Shown: positions 8,222 through 45,248 of the stretch, piece after piece
How the letters are laid out: each line of letters starts with the position of its first letter
How positions within the stretch are numbered: position 1 is the stretch's first letter
Source: Bradyrhizobium sp. AZCC 1719
Lineage (GTDB): Bacteria; Pseudomonadota; Alphaproteobacteria; Rhizobiales; Xanthobacteraceae
Direction: 5' to 3'
DNA: 64,000 nucleotides
Assembly: GCF_036924525.1 (NCBI RefSeq)
Contig: NZ_JAZHRU010000001.1
Span: 4,059,001-4,123,000 of the forward strand
The notes under the pieces: model-generated
The model's database searches: none
What the model was told of the DNA's origin: nothing
What the model saw: only the letters and a program-made list of their open reading frames with translations
Position numbers and translations under genes: made by a program

Positions 8222-8606
8222 CGGTGGTTCTCCCCTTGATCGATCCGAAGCAGGCTCTCCCAAGCCCGTAATCCGGATCCGTCGTAACCTTTGGGCTCTC
8301 CCAAGCCGGCGGGTCACGCCGTTTACTCAGCGAAAGCCGTGCCAAGTCCGAAAATGCTGATTTCTTAAAGGGTTAGGCATTTTTCTGCGGGCGGCGGGGG
8401 CGGCAGAAAGGTCTTGTTGACCATGTTTGCCCGGCAGATTTTTCCCAGTTGGGCGCGAATGGAAAGGTTCCGTTAACCATTATTACCCTAGCGTTGCACG
8501 TGTAGAGGGCGCGTGTGCGCTGGCGGCTTTTGTTTCGCGTTGTGGGGGCATTGTTACCCAGGCTGGTGGCAACCGCGTTCGTTCCTAGATGGAAGCGGGC
8601 GGGGCA
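8222..8606. other. Divergent flagellar promoter region (flgF / fliL)
   Basis: 385 bases with no supportable gene separate flgF from fliL. The region contains a sigma-54-like site on the minus strand (8329-8344) and a TTAAC half site at 8473-8477 on the plus strand that falls one base short of the TTAA-N7-TTAA CtrA spacing. No clear promoter for fliL was found. Confidence 0.5.
8329..8344 (-). promoter_or_regulatory. Sigma-54-like promoter for flgF operon
   Basis: On the minus strand the sequence reads TGGCAC-GGCTT-TCGCT, one mismatch from the RpoN consensus TGGCAC-N5-TTGCW with correct spacing. It points toward flgF. Middle and late flagellar operons of polar systems are often RpoN-dependent, which fits, but no enhancer site was identified. 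Confidence 0.5.
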
Positions 8607-9116: not shown

Positions 9117-10319
9117 ATGGCCGGCAACCAAGACCAGATGGACCAGGACGCCATTGCCGCGCAATGGGAAGCCTCGCTGGATTCCGAAGATCCCGCGGCG
9201 GCTGCGGAAGAGGCTGCCGCCAATGAACTCTCCGAGAGCATGGCGCTGCAGTGGGCGGCCATGGTCGAGGATGGCGGCCGCGAATTCGGCAACAAGAATT
9301 CCGGCGAGCGGGTTCTGTCGCAGGAAGAAATCGACAATCTGCTCGGCTTCACCGTCGGCGATGTCAATCTCGACGACAATTCCGGCATTCGCGCCATCAT
9401 CGATTCCGCGATGGTGTCCTACGAGCGTCTGCCGATGCTCGAAATCGTGTTCGACCGCCTGGTGCGGCTGATGACCACGAGCTTGCGCAACTTCACCTCC
9501 GACAACGTGGAAGTCTCGCTCGACCGCATCACCTCGGTCCGCTTCGGCGACTACATGAACTCAATTCCCCTGCCGGCCGTGCTCAGCGTGTTCAAGGCCG
9601 AGGAGTGGGAGAATTTCGGCCTTGCGACGGTCGATTCCAGCCTGATCTATTCGATTATCGACGTGCTGCTCGGCGGCCGCCGCGGCCAGACCTCGTTGCG
9701 CATCGAGGGCCGGCCCTACACCACGATCGAAACCAACCTCGTCAAGCGGCTGGTCGAGGTGGTGCTTTCAGACGCCGAGCAGGCGTTCCGGCCGCTGTCG
9801 CCGGTGACGTTCTCGATCGACCGGCTGGAAACCAATCCGCGCTTCGCCGCGATCTCCAGGCCCGCCAACGCCGCGATCCTGGTGCGGCTGCGCATCGACA
9901 TGGAAGACCGCGGCGGCAACATCGAATTGCTGCTGCCCTATGCGACCATCGAGCCGATCCGCCCGGTTCTGCTGCAGATGTTCATGGGCGAAAAATTCGG
10001 CCGCGATCCGATCTGGGAAGGGCACTTTGCCACCGAAGTGGCGCAGGCCGAGATATCGGTCGATGCCGTGCTGTATGAAGCCGACATTCCGCTCAAGCAT
10101 CTGATGAAGCTGAAGGTCGGCGACACGCTGCCGCTGGAGATGCGGCCCGATGCGCTGGTGTCGGTCCGCTGCGGCAACGTCACCCTGACCGAAGGGCGGA
10201 TGGGCCGGGTCGGCGACCGCGTCGCCATCCGCGTCACCAAGCAATTGCGCAAACCGAATACCACCTTCGCGATGTTCGAGAAGGCCGACGAGCAAACCAA
10301 GTTGATGGAGGCACAATGA
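9117..10319 (+). CDS. fliM: Flagellar motor switch protein FliM
   Basis: A 400-residue switch protein of the C-ring. The CheY-binding-like motif LSQEEIDNLLGF is at about residue 67, the FliM core (SYERLPMLEIVFDRLVRLMTTSLRNFTS ... VEVSLDRITSVRFGDYMNSIPLPA) follows, and the C-terminal FliN-like SpoA domain lies near residues 310-385 (IPLKHLMKLKVGDTLPLEM). The N-terminus has about 65 extra acidic residues before the CheY motif, which is common in alphaproteobacteria. The stop overlaps the start of the next gene by four bases (ATGA), so the two are translationally coupled. FliG and FliN are not in the window. Confidence 0.96.
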   Translation: MAGNQDQMDQDAIAAQWEASLDSEDPAAAAEEAAANELSESMALQWAAMVEDGGREFGNKNSGERVLSQEEIDNLLGFTVGDVNLDDNSGIRAIIDSAMVSYERLPMLEIVFDRLVRLMTTSLRNFTSDNVEVSLDRITSVRFGDYMNSIPLPAVLSVFKAEEWENFGLATVDSSLIYSIIDVLLGGRRGQTSLRIEGRPYTTIETNLVKRLVEVVLSDAEQAFRPLSPVTFSIDRLETNPRFAAISRPANAAILVRLRIDMEDRGGNIELLLPYATIEPIRPVLLQMFMGEKFGRDPIWEGHFATEVAQAEISVDAVLYEADIPLKHLMKLKVGDTLPLEMRPDALVSVRCGNVTLTEGRMGRVGDRVAIRVTKQLRKPNTTFAMFEKADEQTKLMEAQ

Positions 10320-10753
10320 GTCATTTCCTTGGCATTGTGATCGAGAGTCTGGTGGCGGTTTTGCTACTGCTCACGATCGGTTACTGCATGCTGCTCAACA
10401 AGCGGCTGAAGCGGCTGAAGGCGGACGAACATTCGCTGAAAGCCACCATCGCGGAACTGATCACGGCAACCGAAATCGCCGAGCGGGCGATCGGCGGCCT
10501 CAAGCACACCGTGCGCGACGTCAACGAGAATCTCGGCAGCCAACTCGCCGCCGCGACTCAGATGGCGGGGCACCTGAAGGGCATGCTCGCCGAAGGCGAC
10601 GGCGTCATTCGACGGCTGTCCAAGATCGCGATCGCGGCGCGGCCCTCGCAAGAAGCCGAACCCGCAGCACCCAGGGTCTCTACGGCCAAGGCGGTAGCCG
10701 CGGCGGCTGAAGCATTCTCCGAACGCCGAAAGGCCAGTGGCCTCGCCGCATGA
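10316..10753 (+). CDS. DUF6468 flagellar-operon membrane protein
   Basis: A 145-residue protein with an N-terminal transmembrane helix (IVIESLVAVLLLLTIGYCMLL), a short basic stretch (NKRLKRLK), then a long amphipathic helical region (residues about 35-100) and an Ala-rich tail. It matches the DUF6468 family known from alphaproteobacterial flagellar operons; its function is not established. Four-base ATGA overlaps couple it both to fliM before it and to the motE-like gene after it. This suggests a stoichiometric role near the switch or stator. Confidence 0.8.
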   Translation: MSHFLGIVIESLVAVLLLLTIGYCMLLNKRLKRLKADEHSLKATIAELITATEIAERAIGGLKHTVRDVNENLGSQLAAATQMAGHLKGMLAEGDGVIRRLSKIAIAARPSQEAEPAAPRVSTAKAVAAAAEAFSERRKASGLAA

Positions 10754-11535
10754 AGTCGTTTCGCGATATCCGTGTCATTCCGGTCGTGCTGGTCGCGATC
10801 TTCGGCCTTGCAGTGCTGAAGGTCGCCGGCCTCGTGATCGATGGCGGATACGTGTTCGATTATCAGGTCAGCCAGCCGGCCAAGCGCTCCTGGGCGCAGG
10901 ACAATCTGGGCTATCCCGGCGCCCGCGGGCCGGACCCCGCCGACATCACCGGTTCGGTCAAGAAGGAGGAGAAAAAGGAAGAGGCGCCGAAGCCGGCAGC
11001 GCCGGCTACCGAGGCACCGAAGCACGACGGCGTCGTGGTGTTTCCCGACCAGAACCCGCAATCGGTGTCGCCGTCGGAGCGCGCCATCCTGGAACGGCTG
11101 CAGGCGCGGCGCCAGGAACTGGAGCAGCGCGCGCGTGAAATCGAAATTCGCGAAAGCCTTCTGAAATCGGCCGAGAAGCGCATCGAGGGCCGCGTCGAGG
11201 AAATGAAGGCCACCGAGGCGCGGATCTCGACAGCGAGCGGGCAAAAGGCCGAACAGGACGCTGCCCGCTTCAAGGGCATCATCACGATGTACGAGGGCAT
11301 GAAGCCGAAGGACGCCGCCAAGGTGTTCGACCGGCTGGAAATGTCCGTGCTCTACGAAATCGCCTCCCAGATTGCGCCGCGGAAGATGTCGGACATTCTG
11401 GGCCTGATGCAGCCGGAAGCGGCCGAACGGCTGACGGTCGAACTGGCCCGCCGCGCTGCCGGCACCGATAAGTCCACGTCCACGGCCGAGTTGCCGAAAA
11501 TCGAAGGCAAGATCCTGCAGCCAAAGCCGAACTGA
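10750..11535 (+). CDS. motE: MotE-like periplasmic motility protein
   Basis: A 261-residue protein with an N-terminal membrane anchor (VIPVVLVAIFGLAVLKVAGLVI), a Lys/Glu/Pro-rich linker, a coiled coil (residues about 110-175, LQARRQELEQRAREIEIRESLLKSAEKR) and an MgtE-N-like domain (FKGIITMYEGMKPKDAAKVFDRLEMSVLYEIASQIAPRKMSDILGLMQPEAAERLT). This layout matches rhizobial MotE, described as a periplasmic chaperone of the motor protein MotC. The symbol is inferred from architecture and operon position. motC itself is not in the window. Confidence 0.75.
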   Translation: MKSFRDIRVIPVVLVAIFGLAVLKVAGLVIDGGYVFDYQVSQPAKRSWAQDNLGYPGARGPDPADITGSVKKEEKKEEAPKPAAPATEAPKHDGVVVFPDQNPQSVSPSERAILERLQARRQELEQRAREIEIRESLLKSAEKRIEGRVEEMKATEARISTASGQKAEQDAARFKGIITMYEGMKPKDAAKVFDRLEMSVLYEIASQIAPRKMSDILGLMQPEAAERLTVELARRAAGTDKSTSTAELPKIEGKILQPKPN

Positions 11536-11574
11536 CGCAGGATGCGCCGCCGGCCACGGTAGTAACACGTCCGG

Positions 11575-12018
11575 TCAGAACCTGCGCGGCCCTGACGAGA
11601 CAAACGAGCGGTGGGCTACGGCGAGCGCGCCGCGCTCGTTGGTTTCAAGGGCGATTTTCTGCGCCAGCATGACATCGCCGGCGACGAGGTCGCCATCGGG
11701 AACGAAGCACCATTTGCAGACATGTTGGCCGGTGCCGCTGATTTCCTCGATGTTCGTCTGCGTCCCATGATGGATGCGGTAGCGCGTCCCGGTGTGGCTG
11801 CCGACGACGTCGAAATACCGGAATCGCTCGTAAGAGGCGCGCTGCTTCGGCGACAGCCAATCCTTCAAGAGCGTAAGGGCTCGCGCCTCAGTCTCGAAGC
11901 GAAACGATTTGCTGCAGGAGCCGGACCGCGCCACTGCCAGCGAAAGCGCCGACAGCAGCACCGTACCGAGCAAGGCCAGCACAAATGAGCAAATCGCAAG
12001 GACGATCTGCTGGGTCAC
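11575..12018 (-). CDS. Hypothetical protein with N-terminal membrane helix
   Basis: A 147-residue protein with a GTG start, one N-terminal membrane helix (IVLAICSFVLALLGTVLLSALSLAVA) and a compact C-terminal part containing LSPKQRASYERFRYFDVVGSHTGTRYRIHHGT and CKWCFVPDGDLVAGDVMLAQKIALETNE. I recognise this as a type of conserved uncharacterised protein common in bradyrhizobia, not as a family with known function. The GTRYRIHHGT and CFVPDG motifs are the conserved core. It follows the small gene at 12024-12245 on the same strand with only 5 bases between, so they form a two-gene unit converging on the fliL operon. Confidence 0.7.
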   Translation of the reverse strand: MTQQIVLAICSFVLALLGTVLLSALSLAVARSGSCSKSFRFETEARALTLLKDWLSPKQRASYERFRYFDVVGSHTGTRYRIHHGTQTNIEEISGTGQHVCKWCFVPDGDLVAGDVMLAQKIALETNERGALAVAHRSFVSSGPRRF

Positions 12019-12023
12019 TGCCG

Positions 12024-12245
12024 TCAGCCGCCAACGAGACGCGGATAAAATAGCGTTTCTTCCGCCGTCGGATCGAAGGAGCGGATAACCCGTTGCTCGC
12101 CGGGTCCCGTTCGAACCGCTGCGGTAAATCCTGCGCCGGTCAATTCCATAAAGCGCCGCTCGGCCTTTTCGACCTCCGCGCGGTCATGGACGTCGAAAGT
12201 ATGCCGGGTGTCGCCAGTACGATCCATCACGATCTGGGTTGCCAT
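12024..12245 (-). CDS. Small hypothetical protein
   Basis: A 73-residue protein (MATQIVMDRTGDTRHTFDVHDR ... AERRFMELTGAGFTAAVRTG ... RSFDPTAEETLFYPRLVGG). It has no signal peptide or membrane segment and no recognised domain. The conserved-looking end with a Phe-Asp-Pro-Thr-Ala-Glu-Glu-Thr-Leu motif resembles small MoxR-like accessory proteins of rhizobia, but this is a weak impression. ATG 12245 was chosen over ATG 12254. It is the upstream member of a two-gene leftward unit. Confidence 0.65.
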   Translation of the reverse strand: MATQIVMDRTGDTRHTFDVHDRAEVEKAERRFMELTGAGFTAAVRTGPGEQRVIRSFDPTAEETLFYPRLVGG

Positions 12246-12643
12246 TTCACGCACTCCGAATTGGCTGCCTGAGGCAGGTTAGCGACCCGGGGAGCATTGG
12301 TTGATCGACTGCCGGCCCCGCTTCCCGGGTCCATTGTTTCCCTAAGACGGAACCGCCGATGTTAGTTCCAACGCTGCGTGAGATAAATAATGCAGATCAA
12401 TCATGGCACGGGCGTGATGGTGATCGCTGCGCCCCGAGGCTCGCGACGTCCGAGCGGTGACCCCGAGAAAGGTCCGGATACCGACCCATTACGATGTGTA
12501 ATTGCTCGAGGCCGCAGCCCATCGTCCCTTCAATGAAATCAATTGGTTGACGTTAACAAAGCCTTAAGCCGGCCAATCCAAGATTCAAACGTGCGGGCGA
12601 GAGCGCTTCGCCGAAGAATTCATCGAGGCACGAGATCTTCTGG
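12246..12643. other. Intergenic region upstream of the large TPR gene
   Basis: About 400 bases with no supportable gene, between divergent genes. The only signal found is a perfect TTAA-N7-TTAA match at 12553-12567, listed separately. Confidence 0.5.
12553..12567 (+). promoter_or_regulatory. CtrA-type box upstream of the TPR gene
   Basis: TTAA-CAAAGCC-TTAA matches the full CtrA consensus TTAA-N7-TTAA. It lies 76 bases before the start of the 1252-residue TPR gene, a sensible operator position. The window also carries cckA, whose phosphorelay activates CtrA. Confidence 0.5.
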
Positions 12644-41530: not shown

Positions 41531-42088
41531 TCAGGCTTGCTGGGCGGCGGCGCGAAGCCGGCTGCCGACCAAAACACGAAACGCGACGTATTGAATTGCA
41601 AAGGCGGCAATCTTGGCGCCGACCAGCACGACGGTCACGTAGAACGTCCACAGCTTCATGTCGCCGGTCATCGCGACACCGATGGTGCCGGCGGCGAGTC
41701 CGAAGCACAGTGCGGCCCAGGCGTAGCCCGCAAAAGTGACATATTCGGGAATGGTCTGGGTCACGATGGGGGGCATGTAGCGCAACATCCAGCCCCGCTT
41801 GAGCATGATGACGCCGATCGCGAAATGCCCAATTGCGGGTTTCGCCAGCACGAAGCGCGGGTCGTGGGTCAGAAGCGTCGCGCTGCCGAGCACGATGACG
41901 AGCCCAAGGCTGGCCCATGTCATGTAACCGAGCTCTTTGCCCTTGATGCGAAAGTAGATCACCTGCGCAATGGCGCCAGCGATCGCGACGGCAGTCGCCA
42001 GTAGCACGTTGTCAGTCGTCAGGTAGATCGCGATGAACAGGATGGTGGAGAAAAAATCGGCGCCCAGTCTGGCGAATACGTCCTTCAT
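41531..42088 (-). CDS. YciB/IspZ (septation protein A) family membrane protein
   Basis: A 185-residue protein with about five membrane helices. LATAVAIAGAIAQVIYFRIKGKELGYMTWASLGLVIVLGSATLLTHDPRFVLAKPAIGHFAIGVIMLKRGWML carries the family motif ATLLxHDPRFxxxKP. YciB proteins affect cell-envelope synthesis and septation, but this one differs from the usual housekeeping copy in its N-terminus and may be a specialised paralogue. It follows an unknown membrane protein gene by 42 bases and shares its TetR-type operators. Confidence 0.8.
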   Translation of the reverse strand: MKDVFARLGADFFSTILFIAIYLTTDNVLLATAVAIAGAIAQVIYFRIKGKELGYMTWASLGLVIVLGSATLLTHDPRFVLAKPAIGHFAIGVIMLKRGWMLRYMPPIVTQTIPEYVTFAGYAWAALCFGLAAGTIGVAMTGDMKLWTFYVTVVLVGAKIAAFAIQYVAFRVLVGSRLRAAAQQA

Positions 42089-42130: not shown

Positions 42131-42709
42131 TTAGTTGGCGCCGGGTAGGGCGTTCGCCGGCGGGACACCATGCTTCGCCCTGCGATATTGTGGATACCAT
42201 GTCGTGAAATAGGCGGCACTGTTGCGGGCGGCGAAGGCGATGGCGAGTCCGATCCAGAGTGGGAAGCCCGGCACATAGATCGTCAGCACGTTGCCGACGA
42301 TCATCAGGACGAATGCGCCGGTCCAGGCCCACGTGATGATATAGATCGCCTTCATGAAGCCGGGCAGCTTGGTCGTCTCGTTATCGACGGCTTCCAGCGC
42401 GTATTGCAGCACGAACGGCTTGCGGATGATCAGCGATGCCAGCGAGATCGCCAGCACGCCGACATCGGTTGCCAGCTTGACGGCCGAGTTGTTCAGGTTC
42501 GGGTCGATCAGCGTGACCCAAGCGCCTATCCCGGCGAAAACGACGACGCAACCCGCGCCGAGCATCTTGATCGAACGGCCGCGAGCGACGTCGATGGCAA
42601 CGACAGCAAGGCAGATCGCGGCCGAAGCGAACAGGCTGACCTGGGCCGACGTCACCAGCATCAGCAGGGCGAAGGAGCCGAAGGGAGCAAGGATCAGGAA
42701 GATTGTCAT
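42131..42709 (-). CDS. Hypothetical membrane protein of the TetR-regulated module
   Basis: A 192-residue protein with about six hydrophobic helices (FLILAPFGSFALLMLVTSAQVSLFASAAICLAVVAIDV, LGAGCVVVFAGIGAWVTLI, LATDVGVLAISLASLII, IYIITWAWTGAFVLMIVGNVLTI). The loop RKPFVLQYALEAVDNETTKLPGFMKA is charged. No family was recognised, though its general layout resembles septation-protein-A relatives. GAGAGGC precedes ATG 42709, and a palindromic operator ends 17 bases upstream. It is the first gene of the pair with the YciB-like protein. Confidence 0.75.
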   Translation of the reverse strand: MTIFLILAPFGSFALLMLVTSAQVSLFASAAICLAVVAIDVARGRSIKMLGAGCVVVFAGIGAWVTLIDPNLNNSAVKLATDVGVLAISLASLIIRKPFVLQYALEAVDNETTKLPGFMKAIYIITWAWTGAFVLMIVGNVLTIYVPGFPLWIGLAIAFAARNSAAYFTTWYPQYRRAKHGVPPANALPGAN

Positions 42710-42726: not shown

Positions 42727-42798
42727 ATCTTTACAGCGTAAAGATACACTAGGAGCCGGTCCGGGACTCGTCAAGAAAAATCTTTACAGTGTCTAAAT
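42727..42798 (-). promoter_or_regulatory. Promoter with paired TetR-type operators for the membrane-protein operon
   Basis: The downstream operator is ATCTTTAC-AGC-GTAAAGAT at 42727-42745, with perfect 8-bp arms; it lies 17 bases before the ATG at 42709. The upstream operator is ATCTTTAC-AGT-GTCTAAAT at 42780-42798 (right arm 5 of 8). On the minus strand a promoter TTGACG (42769-42774) with 17-base spacer and TAGTGT (42746-42751) lies between them. The layout equals that at 44422-44494. Confidence 0.75.
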
Positions 42799-42847
42799 TC
42801 GACGACGCGACGATCTGTGATTATCTTTGCAACGGTTTGCCGGCGCT

Positions 42848-42976
42848 TCAGGCGCCCAATATCGCGACCGAGAGAAACATGAGGGCACAGGCGAGCAGCA
42901 AAACGAGCGTGATCGTGATGCCGCCGACCCGGCCGACGCTTGCAACGTGGGGCGCGACAACGTCGCGCCCCGGCAT
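42848..42976 (-). CDS. 42-residue single-pass membrane protein
   Basis: A short frame of 42 codons plus stop from ATG 42976: MPGRDVVAPHVASVGRVGG, then a hydrophobic helix ITITLVLLLACALMFLSVAILGA. It follows the carotenoid oxygenase stop (42995) by 18 bases on the same strand, so it could be the second gene of that transcript. No strong ribosome binding site is visible. Function unknown. Confidence 0.5.
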   Translation of the reverse strand: MPGRDVVAPHVASVGRVGGITITLVLLLACALMFLSVAILGA

Positions 42977-42994
42977 CGTGGACGTATAGCGCGC

Positions 42995-44404
42995 TCAGGC
43001 CGCGCCAACCCAATTGCCGTGGATGCCGTCGGGGACACGATGTCCGAGCTTCACCAGCGCCACCGGTCCGGCGTCGACATCGGTGGCATTGAATACCGCG
43101 AGGTCGCTGCGGTTTTCGCGGGCTCGCCAGACCACCGACATCAGCCAGCCGTCACCCTCGCTGGCGTCATCGCCGCGTGGAACGAACACTGCTTCCGAGA
43201 TCGTATCGCCGGCGGGCAGCAGGTACTGGCCAAGCCGCGATCCATTGCCGTCGACATGTACCAGGCCCGACAATCCGCCTGAAGTCGGCAGGTCGGGATT
43301 GGCGCAGGCGTACCATCCATGCCGGTTGGCTGAACCGACGCTTCGATCGCAGACGCGGGGGAATTCTCCGGTAATGTCGTCGAGCCAGGTTTGCGTGAAT
43401 CGATCGGTATTGCCTGCGAGATCGAAGGTCCAGCGGCACAGCCGGGCGCGCGACTTGGCGGGATTGGTGGGCGTGCCGTCGGGATGGGTGAACAGCGGCG
43501 GCTCCTCGTACTGCATGACGTCGGCAATGATGCGGTCGCCGTCCTCCCACGCGTTCATGACGTGGAAGACGTAGCAGCACTCGGCGCGAAACCAGACGAT
43601 GTCCTTGGCGGAGCCGTCGCGCTTCATGACGCCGACATAGGCGCCCTTGTCCGGCTCCCAAGCATAGGGCGGCCGACCCGTCATGGCGCGCTCGATGCTG
43701 CCGGTGAGCGGCAGGATCGGAAACAGCAGATGATTTTTGGTGACGATGAAGTCGTGCACCATGCTCGCATAGGGGGCCTCGAAGCGATCGAAGCGCGTTA
43801 CTACGCCGGCGGCATTGACGGAGCCGAAGGAGAGGGCGGGGGTGAGGCGGCCTGCGGCGTTGTAGCCGAAGAACACCATCTCGCCGGTGACGGGATCGAT
43901 CTTGGGATGCGCCGTGAACGGTCCAGAAATGCCTTTGCCATAATCGCAATAGCCGAGCCGGTTGAGGGTGCCAGGCTCGATCTCGGTCGGCAAATGGCCT
44001 TCCTCAAGGGCCAGCAGGCGGCCGCCATGAAAGATGATGTTGGTATTGGCGACGCCGCCGTCTTGCGTAACCGAGGCGGGCGTACCCGGCAGCCTGCGGC
44101 CGAAGCCGCCGAACAGCGCTCGGCCGGCATCGTGCTCGGCCAGCCATTTCGGGGTGCGGACCCAGCGATTGCGATAGCTGGCGCGGCCGTTCTCCAGACG
44201 GAAGGCGTGCAGCATGCCGTCGCCCACGAACCAGTGGGCGCCGGGCGCGTCGAATTGCGGGTTGGGGCCGTTGCGATAAAGCGTGCCGTTAAGCTCGCGC
44301 GGTAATTCACCAGTCACCTTGAGGTGTGCCGCGTCGCATTCCATCGGGATCGGCGCCAGATTGTCCCGCGTCGCATTGGTCGTCGCCAATTGGTCGAGCA
44401 TCAT
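42995..44404 (-). CDS. Carotenoid oxygenase (RPE65/CCD/lignostilbene dioxygenase family)
   Basis: A 469-residue non-haem iron dioxygenase. The N-terminal GELPRELNGTLYRNGPNPQFDAPGAHWFVGDGMLHAFRLENG is the family hallmark, and further blocks include FTAHPKIDPVTGEMVFFGYN, ASMVHDFIVTKNHLLFP, YVFHVMNAWEDGD and the final PDGIHGNWV, supplying the four iron-binding histidines (in TAHPK, VHDF, FHVMN and GIHGNW). It cleaves conjugated double bases of carotenoids, apocarotenoids or stilbenes; the actual substrate is unknown. GGAGG precedes ATG 44404. It is divergent from tetR with shared operators. Confidence 0.93.
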   Translation of the reverse strand: MMLDQLATTNATRDNLAPIPMECDAAHLKVTGELPRELNGTLYRNGPNPQFDAPGAHWFVGDGMLHAFRLENGRASYRNRWVRTPKWLAEHDAGRALFGGFGRRLPGTPASVTQDGGVANTNIIFHGGRLLALEEGHLPTEIEPGTLNRLGYCDYGKGISGPFTAHPKIDPVTGEMVFFGYNAAGRLTPALSFGSVNAAGVVTRFDRFEAPYASMVHDFIVTKNHLLFPILPLTGSIERAMTGRPPYAWEPDKGAYVGVMKRDGSAKDIVWFRAECCYVFHVMNAWEDGDRIIADVMQYEEPPLFTHPDGTPTNPAKSRARLCRWTFDLAGNTDRFTQTWLDDITGEFPRVCDRSVGSANRHGWYACANPDLPTSGGLSGLVHVDGNGSRLGQYLLPAGDTISEAVFVPRGDDASEGDGWLMSVVWRARENRSDLAVFNATDVDAGPVALVKLGHRVPDGIHGNWVGAA

Positions 44405-44421
44405 ACGTTCCCTCCGGTTGT

Positions 44422-44494
44422 ATCTTTACATCGTAAAGATGTCAGTAGGCGCGTTGCCATGGGTCGTCAAGCAAAATCTTTACAGTGTAAAAAT
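44422..44494. promoter_or_regulatory. Divergent promoter with paired TetR-type operators
   Basis: Operator 1 is ATCTTTAC-ATC-GTAAAGAT at 44422-44440, perfect arms, 17 bases before the carotenoid oxygenase ATG. Operator 2 is ATCTTTAC-AGT-GTAAAAAT at 44476-44494 (7 of 8). Between them on the minus strand lie TTGACG (44465-44470) and TACTGA (44442-44447) with a 17-base spacer. For tetR on the plus strand, TTTACA (44479-44484) and TATAAA (44501-44506) are possible promoter boxes. Confidence 0.8.
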
Positions 44495-44513
44495 TGTGGT
44501 TATAAAGATTCGC

Positions 44514-45248
44514 ATGGCAAGATTATCGAGAGCAACCAAAACGAACCGCCCGGCCGCGAAGCGCAGGCCCGTGAAGACTGTAGCCGAAAGGCCGGCCAGC
44601 CGGCGTCGTCGTCCGGCCGGCGAGACGCCCTATCATCACGGCGATCTGCACGACGCCTTGCTCGCCGCGGCGGAGCGGGTGCTGGAACGCGACGGGCTGT
44701 CGGGCCTGACGCTGCGGGCGGTTGCGCGCGAGGCCGGCGTGTCGCATGCGGCACCGACCCATCATTTCGGCGATCTCACCGGGCTGCTGAGCGAGCTTGC
44801 CGCCATCGGATTCCGGCGCTTCAACGCGGCGATGACCGCGGCGGGCAACACCGAAACGCTTCCGCTCATGAAGTCGTTGGCGCGCGCCAAGGCTTATGTC
44901 GCCTATGCGCAGGCGCGCCCCGGCATGTACGGGCTGATGTTCCGGACCGAGCGGCTCGACATGACGCGGCCCTCGCTGCACGAGGCGGCGACCGCCTCCT
45001 TCGAAGGACTGGCGACCGCGGTGAGCCTCAGCCGCAACGAAAAACTCACCGGCGAAGCGCTCGAGGCTTTGTCGCTCGACCAGGCTGCCGCGATTGCCCG
45101 TGCGTGGTCGCTGGTGCACGGCTTCACCACGCTGCTGCTTGATGGAAGGCTCAAGGACATTCTGCACCGGCTGCCCGAGGGGACCGGCGTCGACCAGCTT
45201 CTGGATGCAATGCTGCGTTCGACAGTGCCACGACCGCCGGGGGCGTAA
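44514..45248 (+). CDS. TetR/AcrR family regulator
   Basis: A 244-residue regulator. After a basic N-terminal extension (residues 1-40, many Arg/Lys) comes the helix-turn-helix YHHGDLHDALLAAAERVLERDGLSGLTLRAVAREAGVSHAAPTHHFGDLTGLLSELAAIGFRRF. The C-terminal domain (AKAYVAYAQARPGMYGLMFRTERLD ... IARAWSLVHGFTTLLLDGRL) is the WHG-type ligand-binding fold. It probably represses itself, the carotenoid oxygenase and the membrane-protein operon through ATCTTTAC-N3-GTAAAGAT sites. The promoter boxes leave almost no 5' leader before the ATG. No ribosome binding site is seen. Confidence 0.92.
   Translation: MARLSRATKTNRPAAKRRPVKTVAERPASRRRRPAGETPYHHGDLHDALLAAAERVLERDGLSGLTLRAVAREAGVSHAAPTHHFGDLTGLLSELAAIGFRRFNAAMTAAGNTETLPLMKSLARAKAYVAYAQARPGMYGLMFRTERLDMTRPSLHEAATASFEGLATAVSLSRNEKLTGEALEALSLDQAAAIARAWSLVHGFTTLLLDGRLKDILHRLPEGTGVDQLLDAMLRSTVPRPPGA

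Follow-up and report, generated by a model that had tools for sequence, protein, structure and literature searches.

Why does one stretch of a Bradyrhizobium genome carry matching pairs of palindromes at two separate promoters, and which protein reads them? The question arises in a 64,000-nucleotide segment of Bradyrhizobium sp. AZCC 1719 (hereafter the window), in which a tetR gene lies divergent to a carotenoid oxygenase gene, and genes for two membrane proteins, M1 and M2, lie on the same strand as the oxygenase gene. Because matching palindrome pairs lie beside tetR and the layout is kept in most of the genus genomes that were searched, a single repressor likely switches both promoters. 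An earlier note on this DNA had proposed such a small regulon, with the divergent TetR as its likely reader. The proposal is now backed, at the level of sequence comparison, by the co-occurrence of sites and regulator and by covariation between one residue of the regulator and one base of the sites.

Paired operators and twin promoters

Two of the four sites, at 42727-42745 and 44422-44440 on the minus strand, are exact matches to ATCTTTAC-N3-GTAAAGAT, and are the proximal operators of the M1 and oxygenase promoters, respectively. The distal operator of the oxygenase promoter (44476-44494, minus strand) has one mismatch. That of the M1 promoter (42780-42798, minus strand) has three, with the half adjoining the promoter exact. 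Start-to-start distances within the pairs are 53 bp at the M1 promoter and 54 bp at the oxygenase promoter. The earlier description of two pairs thus holds in its coordinates and spacings; its wording of four ATCTTTAC-N3-GTAAAGAT sites is overstated for two of them, because these have one and three mismatches. At both promoters, 17 bases separate the end of the proximal operator from an ATG (at 42709 and 44404 on the minus strand), as had been observed. This exact distance varies between loci, and elsewhere the first in-frame start is found at differing distances.

With up to three mismatches allowed, the window contains four matches, against 0.03 expected from the shuffled window. In the 7.2 Mb of the organism's own genome, just three sites have zero or one mismatch, all within this locus. 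Sites with three mismatches occur at four other places, none with a partner site at 45-60 bp; these places are at control level, since the motif gives 8 matches overall and a reversed-pattern control gives 7. The earlier note had recommended a genus-wide search, and here a site with at most one mismatch is present in 260 of 265 genus genomes, with 0 in each for the reversed control. A strict pair pattern is found in 72 of 75 genus genomes, with at most two pairs per genome and two always on one contig. Frequent occurrence of the motif away from linked genes, which the note had named as damaging to its proposal, is absent from the organism's own genome, and the strict pair is not frequent in the 75 genus genomes. 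A few genomes do carry unlinked sites.

Between the operators lie TTGACG-N17-TAGTGT and TTGACG-N17-TACTGA, just as had been reported. On the minus strand, the predicted -35 and -10 elements are TTGACG (42769-42774) and TAGTGT (42746-42751) for M1, and TTGACG (44465-44470) and TACTGA (44442-44447) for the oxygenase. TTGA of each -35 and TA of each -10 are conserved. Our promoter survey covered the window, 80 named loci and 40 loci beside TetR matches in family genomes, one of the 40 (L199) being a second TetR inside the genus. An operator pair is present at 84 of 87 oxygenase promoters and 95 of 101 M1 promoters, mostly at a spacing of 52-54 bp (range 52-55 bp at oxygenase promoters, with two at 42, and 51-56 bp at M1 promoters); these promoter and spacing counts lean towards pairs, because the script keeps the best site of up to four mismatches near each gene. 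The exact-pattern pair search is free of that lean, and promoter elements are not part of its pattern. TTGA follows the distal operator by 5 bp at 81 of 84 oxygenase and 89 of 95 M1 promoters, and TA lies 17 bp farther on at 77 of 84 and 87 of 95. In the two 42-bp pairs, the position 17 bp past the -35 lands within the proximal operator. Pairwise identity between loci is 0.93-0.97 for operators (distal 0.93-0.94, proximal 0.94-0.97) versus 0.36-0.37 for the 17-bp spacer. The two promoters of the window had been read as a promoter duplication. We find no likeness beyond the shared elements: the 17-bp spacers are 0.30 identical within a locus and 0.29 between loci. Recent copying of the promoter is not supported, on the same ground.

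The tetR gene is predicted to have a promoter of its own that has its -35 inside an operator. Its putative -35, TTTACA (44479-44484, plus strand), falls within the distal operator of the oxygenase promoter, and its putative -10, TATAAA (44501-44506, plus strand), lies 16 bp from that -35, with the ATG 7 bases farther on. Of 108 tetR-adjacent distal operators, 105 have a TATAAT-like hexamer (4 or more of 6 bases matching) at 16-18 bp, versus 7 of 71 others, and in 96 of the 108 the first ATG is 6-7 bases past that hexamer. From these sequences we predict that the tetR message is leaderless, with its -35 inside the operator. We take 44514 as the tetR start by assumption, and the window also has GTG codons in frame farther upstream.

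Across loci, the gene served by the tetR-adjacent pair is variable. M1 replaces the oxygenase in 25 of 108 such pairs (e.g. L067, L084, L163 and L169), so the oxygenase is not a fixed member of the regulon. M1 homologues located 5-14 kb from tetR keep their own operator pair (L242, 66% identity; L234, 40%), and L166 has kept both operator pairs with the oxygenase reduced to a 56-residue match. A search for unlinked sites with the K/M pattern defined below, in seven genomes of which four were chosen for high site counts, found unlinked pairs in three. These precede genes for an M20 peptidase (L224), an MFS_2 transporter (L225) and a 724-aa fusion protein (L226:751-2925, G153) that joins an M1-like front (hhalign probability 91%) to an FAD amine-oxidase back. 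The predicted gene starts in L224 and L226 are 80-100 bp past the proximal operator, which exceeds the distance at the main locus. Unlinked sites also occur singly, with no partner, in G117, G170 and G289.

Some loci contain additional genes. In L242 (G139, 9700-12490), about 4 kb with response regulator- and sensor kinase-like genes separates the oxygenase from M1, and both operator pairs are retained. Short extra genes with weak, sub-cut-off IspA matches lie within the locus at L161:8455-8778 and L187:4825-5202; the one in L161 starts about 110 bp past a further operator pair at 8268/8323.

The TetR regulator and its probable link to the sites

The tetR gene (44514-45248, plus strand) encodes 244 aa from the ATG at 44514. 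The protein belongs to the TetR family by its Pfam matches: TetR_N scores 37.6 bits against a cut-off of 24, and TetR_C_33 scores 48.1 against 26.8. Its nearest relatives are encoded at Bradyrhizobium loci (97% identity), and homologues adjoin the sites elsewhere. We counted the exact pattern ATCTTKAC-N3-GTMAAGAT, which allows K/M at one position per half, and TetR matches at E <=1e-30 across 295 family genomes; the plain ATCTTTAC form was counted in the genus only. The exact motif is present in 75 genomes, all 75 of which have a TetR match, and in 0 of the 206 without one. With the organism's own genus excluded, 50 genomes have both, 13 have only the TetR, 0 have only the motif and 206 have neither. 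Among the 14 genomes with a TetR match and no exact motif, seven have TetR matches of just 40-43% identity. Two loci, L175 and L179 (G445 and G350), encode a TetR of 58-63% identity with His at residue 83 and an adjacent oxygenase of 70% identity, and have no site at up to three mismatches; their palindromes have diverged (AACTAGAC...GTCAAGAT in L175). Five genus genomes are without the motif. Four of these have only a distant TetR (best 36-43% identity), and in the fifth tetR sits at a contig end.

The recognition helix provides another tie. The TetR of the window has His at residue 83, and we scanned upstream of TetR genes with base 3 of the half-site (tetR strand) left free, which found a site in 139 of 163 TetR loci. 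When residue 83 is His, base 3 is C at 244 of 248 sites (the other four are not C); when it is Asn, base 3 is A at 12 of 14 and G at 2; and when it is Arg, base 3 is G at 4 of 4. In one row gapped at residue 83, base 3 is C at 2 sites. The other half-site is looser, with C 117, T 76, A 27 and G 10 for His (n = 230) and A 6 and G 5 for Asn (n = 11), in counts made before the class-wide loci joined the set. The same script applied to control blocks elsewhere in the loci returned 146 sites in 4552 blocks; this set is unsorted, and most of it presumably represents M1 promoters. Rows with stop codons or short matches (below about 140-150 residues) were dropped from the tree and covariation sets, and the duplicates L252 and L254 (from G025 and the window's own genome) were removed before the covariation count.

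On the best tree of 93 rows, residue 83 changes six times, and well-supported branches force two of these changes. The switch at this residue thus reflects more than one event, though not many. The Arg rows and one Asn row fall within a well-supported clade other than that of the remaining Asn rows. Taken with the co-occurrence, these sequence patterns make the link between TetR and the sites well supported.

In L181, L183, L187-L190, L193 and L195, a second TetR (28-34% identity) and an oxygenase (37-41%) are encoded a few kb from the locus. This second TetR has a different recognition helix, GAAYKHF.

The oxygenase and the membrane proteins

The oxygenase gene (42995-44404, minus strand) encodes a 469-aa member of the RPE65/carotenoid oxygenase superfamily, with a Pfam RPE65 score of 445 bits and iron-ligand histidines at 166, 217, 281 and 462. 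Its best NCBIfam match, LigStilDioxAlpha, scores 414 bits against an equivalog cut-off of 800, and its best solved relative is 6xm6, one of the LSD4 entries. Residues were assigned by alignment to this LSD4 structure. Tyr-101 and Lys-134 are reported to bind the 4-hydroxyl group in lignostilbene dioxygenases (PMC8191317). The enzyme of the window shares with LSD4 of Sphingobium SYK-6 the superfamily, the four iron-ligand histidines and Phe-59, and differs in having Phe and Glu in place of Tyr-101 and Lys-134, besides scoring below the NCBIfam cut-off. Of 94 homologues, 85 have Phe at position 101 and 6 have Ala (3 are gapped or unaligned there); at position 134, 79 have Glu, 13 have Val and 1 has Asn (1 is unaligned). 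Tyr at 101 or Lys at 134 occurs in none of those that align. Stilbene cleavage, which the earlier note had offered alongside apocarotenoid cleavage, is weakened because the residues assigned to phenol binding are replaced here and in these homologues, and identity as a lignostilbene dioxygenase is likewise disfavoured.

A home-made C40 carotenoid is also an unlikely substrate, since a search of the organism's own genome for the crtI family returned nothing over the cut-off (best 117.6 bits versus 238.1). An outside polyene or other alkene may be the better guess. The oxygenase genes of L058, L113 and L070 gave tblastn matches in two pieces, which may reflect frame breaks or sequencing errors.

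M1 (42131-42709, minus strand; 192 aa) is a predicted membrane protein that matches no Pfam family. Its score against the VC0807 family, 25.3, is below the NCBIfam subfamily cut-off of 65, and we found no paper on VC0807 in the open-licence literature searched. AlphaFold2 predicts an all-helical fold for M1 (mean pLDDT 77.5), and the model has no match in the PDB at E <=0.001. M2 (41531-42088, minus strand; 185 aa) has the Pfam IspA domain of the IspA/YciB family (PF04279, 57 bits, cut-off 28.7). Its scores against the NCBIfam IspZ equivalogs, 68.4 versus a cut-off of 180 and 50.8 versus 165.2, are far too low for an IspZ assignment. With respect to the IspZ/YciB septation family, then, M2 qualifies at the level of the Pfam domain and falls well short of the equivalogs, while M1 has no Pfam match at all. 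The earlier description of a membrane-protein pair with a YciB-like gene is borne out for M2, just one of the two. Mutual homology of M1 and M2 was considered and set aside, as their profile comparison is not significant.

A proposed repressor circuit, its alternatives and its relatives

The sites, their layout and conservation, their co-occurrence with the regulator and the covariation are direct observations; from them we infer binding, direction of control, transcript starts, a ligand and a physiological role. In our proposal, which we hold with good confidence, TetR binds all four palindromes and represses the oxygenase, M1-M2 and its own gene until a small molecule releases it. Occupancy of the four sites is very likely, and would shut the oxygenase, M1-M2 and tetR promoters. 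At each target promoter the proximal operator spans the predicted start of transcription, from about -5 to +14, and the distal operator, from about -59 to -41, lies immediately upstream of the -35; bound repressor would therefore flank the polymerase site. On the tetR-adjacent distal operator, TetR would also cover the predicted tetR -35, which would make the putatively leaderless message autorepressed. A small-molecule ligand is predicted to release TetR from the DNA, upon which the regulator, the oxygenase and the membrane proteins would rise together. The oxygenase might then remove the ligand or a relative of it.

Other accounts of the locus can be weighed against this repressor circuit. 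The palindromes could belong to another regulator, with tetR a mere neighbour, and L175 and L179, which have TetR without the motif, would fit such a case. We consider it very improbable, given that the motif is found in none of the 206 family genomes without a TetR match, that residue 83 follows base 3, and that the five motif-less genus genomes lack either a close TetR or its upstream DNA. TetR might instead be partly an activator, recruiting polymerase from the site near -50 and repressing through the start-site operator alone. The location of the distal operators, which are nearly as conserved as the proximal ones, would suit this arrangement. Activation nevertheless seems improbable to us: the promoter cores look complete, and a tetR-adjacent distal operator that holds the predicted tetR -35 is in keeping with repression.

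The remaining alternatives concern what the regulon is for. Stilbene catabolism by a lignostilbene-type dioxygenase would explain why the closest NCBIfam and structural matches of the oxygenase are LigStilDioxAlpha and LSD4; the large shortfall from the family cut-off and the absence of Tyr-101 and Lys-134, here and in the aligned homologues, make it quite unlikely. Envelope homeostasis, with M1-M2 as the core and the oxygenase as an incidental passenger, we regard as doubtful. It would accommodate the 25 of 108 tetR-adjacent pairs that serve M1, and the IspA/YciB membership of M2. It would not lead one to expect that TetR relatives in other families again adjoin RPE65-family oxygenases (5 of 20 scanned), or that a second TetR in a genus genome (L199) heads DUF6790 and oxygenase genes.

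Autorepressing divergent TetR systems are well known. In Tn10, TetR and tetA are a divergent regulator and target with two operators and autorepression. The locus in the window shares the divergent arrangement, the two operators and, by prediction, the autorepression. Unlike Tn10, it has a second, separate promoter with the same operator pair, and each pair brackets a single promoter core. In addition, the predicted -35 of the tetR gene, whose message appears to be leaderless, lies within an operator, and there is no efflux pump. Within the genus, FrrA of Bradyrhizobium japonicum is likewise a regulator of the TetR type that has a local target. Its gene adjoins that of the RND efflux pump FreCAB, and FrrA is reported to act with genistein (PMC4070704). 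The targets in the window differ in being an oxygenase and membrane proteins rather than an RND pump. The terms septation, carotenoid, palindrom and dioxygenase are all absent from the portion of the blr7984 text examined (PMC5017801). We found no paper on a regulon of this kind in the open-licence literature searched, subscription papers being mostly outside that search. What is new here is the twin promoters kept in most searched genus genomes, the operator with a predicted tetR -35, the tracking of base by residue, and the theme that recurs in the wider clade.

That theme comes from a class-wide search queried with the second, Asn-type TetR of one genus genome. At L199, the Asn-type TetR heads genes for a DUF6790 membrane protein and an RPE65 oxygenase, and has variant paired operators. 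For 20 of 27 relatives we scanned the divergent gene, taken to be the best-coding of the frames that begin no more than about 250 bp from where tetR starts. Ten of these genes are ABA4-like (PF14108), five encode RPE65 oxygenases, two are DUF2306, and the others are one DoxX-like gene, one aminotransferase and one without a family. Because TetRs of the clade repeatedly adjoin oxygenases or small membrane proteins, the pairing suggests one class of ligand.

ABA4-like proteins and carotenoid oxygenases both belong to the plant abscisic-acid pathway; elsewhere in the class, TetR relatives adjoin ABA4-like or RPE65 genes. Unlike the loci of these relatives, the organism's own genome has no ABA4-like gene. 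Among the distant relatives (L253-L281), operator-like pairs with sites of up to two mismatches have a spacing of 26-27 bp next to oxygenases and of 32-34 bp next to several ABA4-like genes.

We tentatively suggest a clade of alphaproteobacterial repressors that may share a ligand class (an apocarotenoid or similar polyene) and a DNA code, in which one recognition-helix residue would select one base of ATNTTKAC half-sites: C for His, A for Asn and G for Arg. Its members might guard carotenoid oxygenases and, alongside them or in their place, small polytopic membrane proteins (M1-M2, ABA4-like, DUF2306, DUF6790) whose role would be to deal with these molecules inside the membrane.

If the proposed circuit is correct, a conserved locus undescribed in the open-licence literature searched would become a defined regulon with testable sites. 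Its inducer would open a way to the substrate of a carotenoid oxygenase found across the genus, and to M1 and M2. In the correspondence between residue 83 and base 3, nature would offer a TetR specificity switch that needs one residue and one base, and the ABA4-like neighbours elsewhere in the class point to a wider polyene or lipid response.
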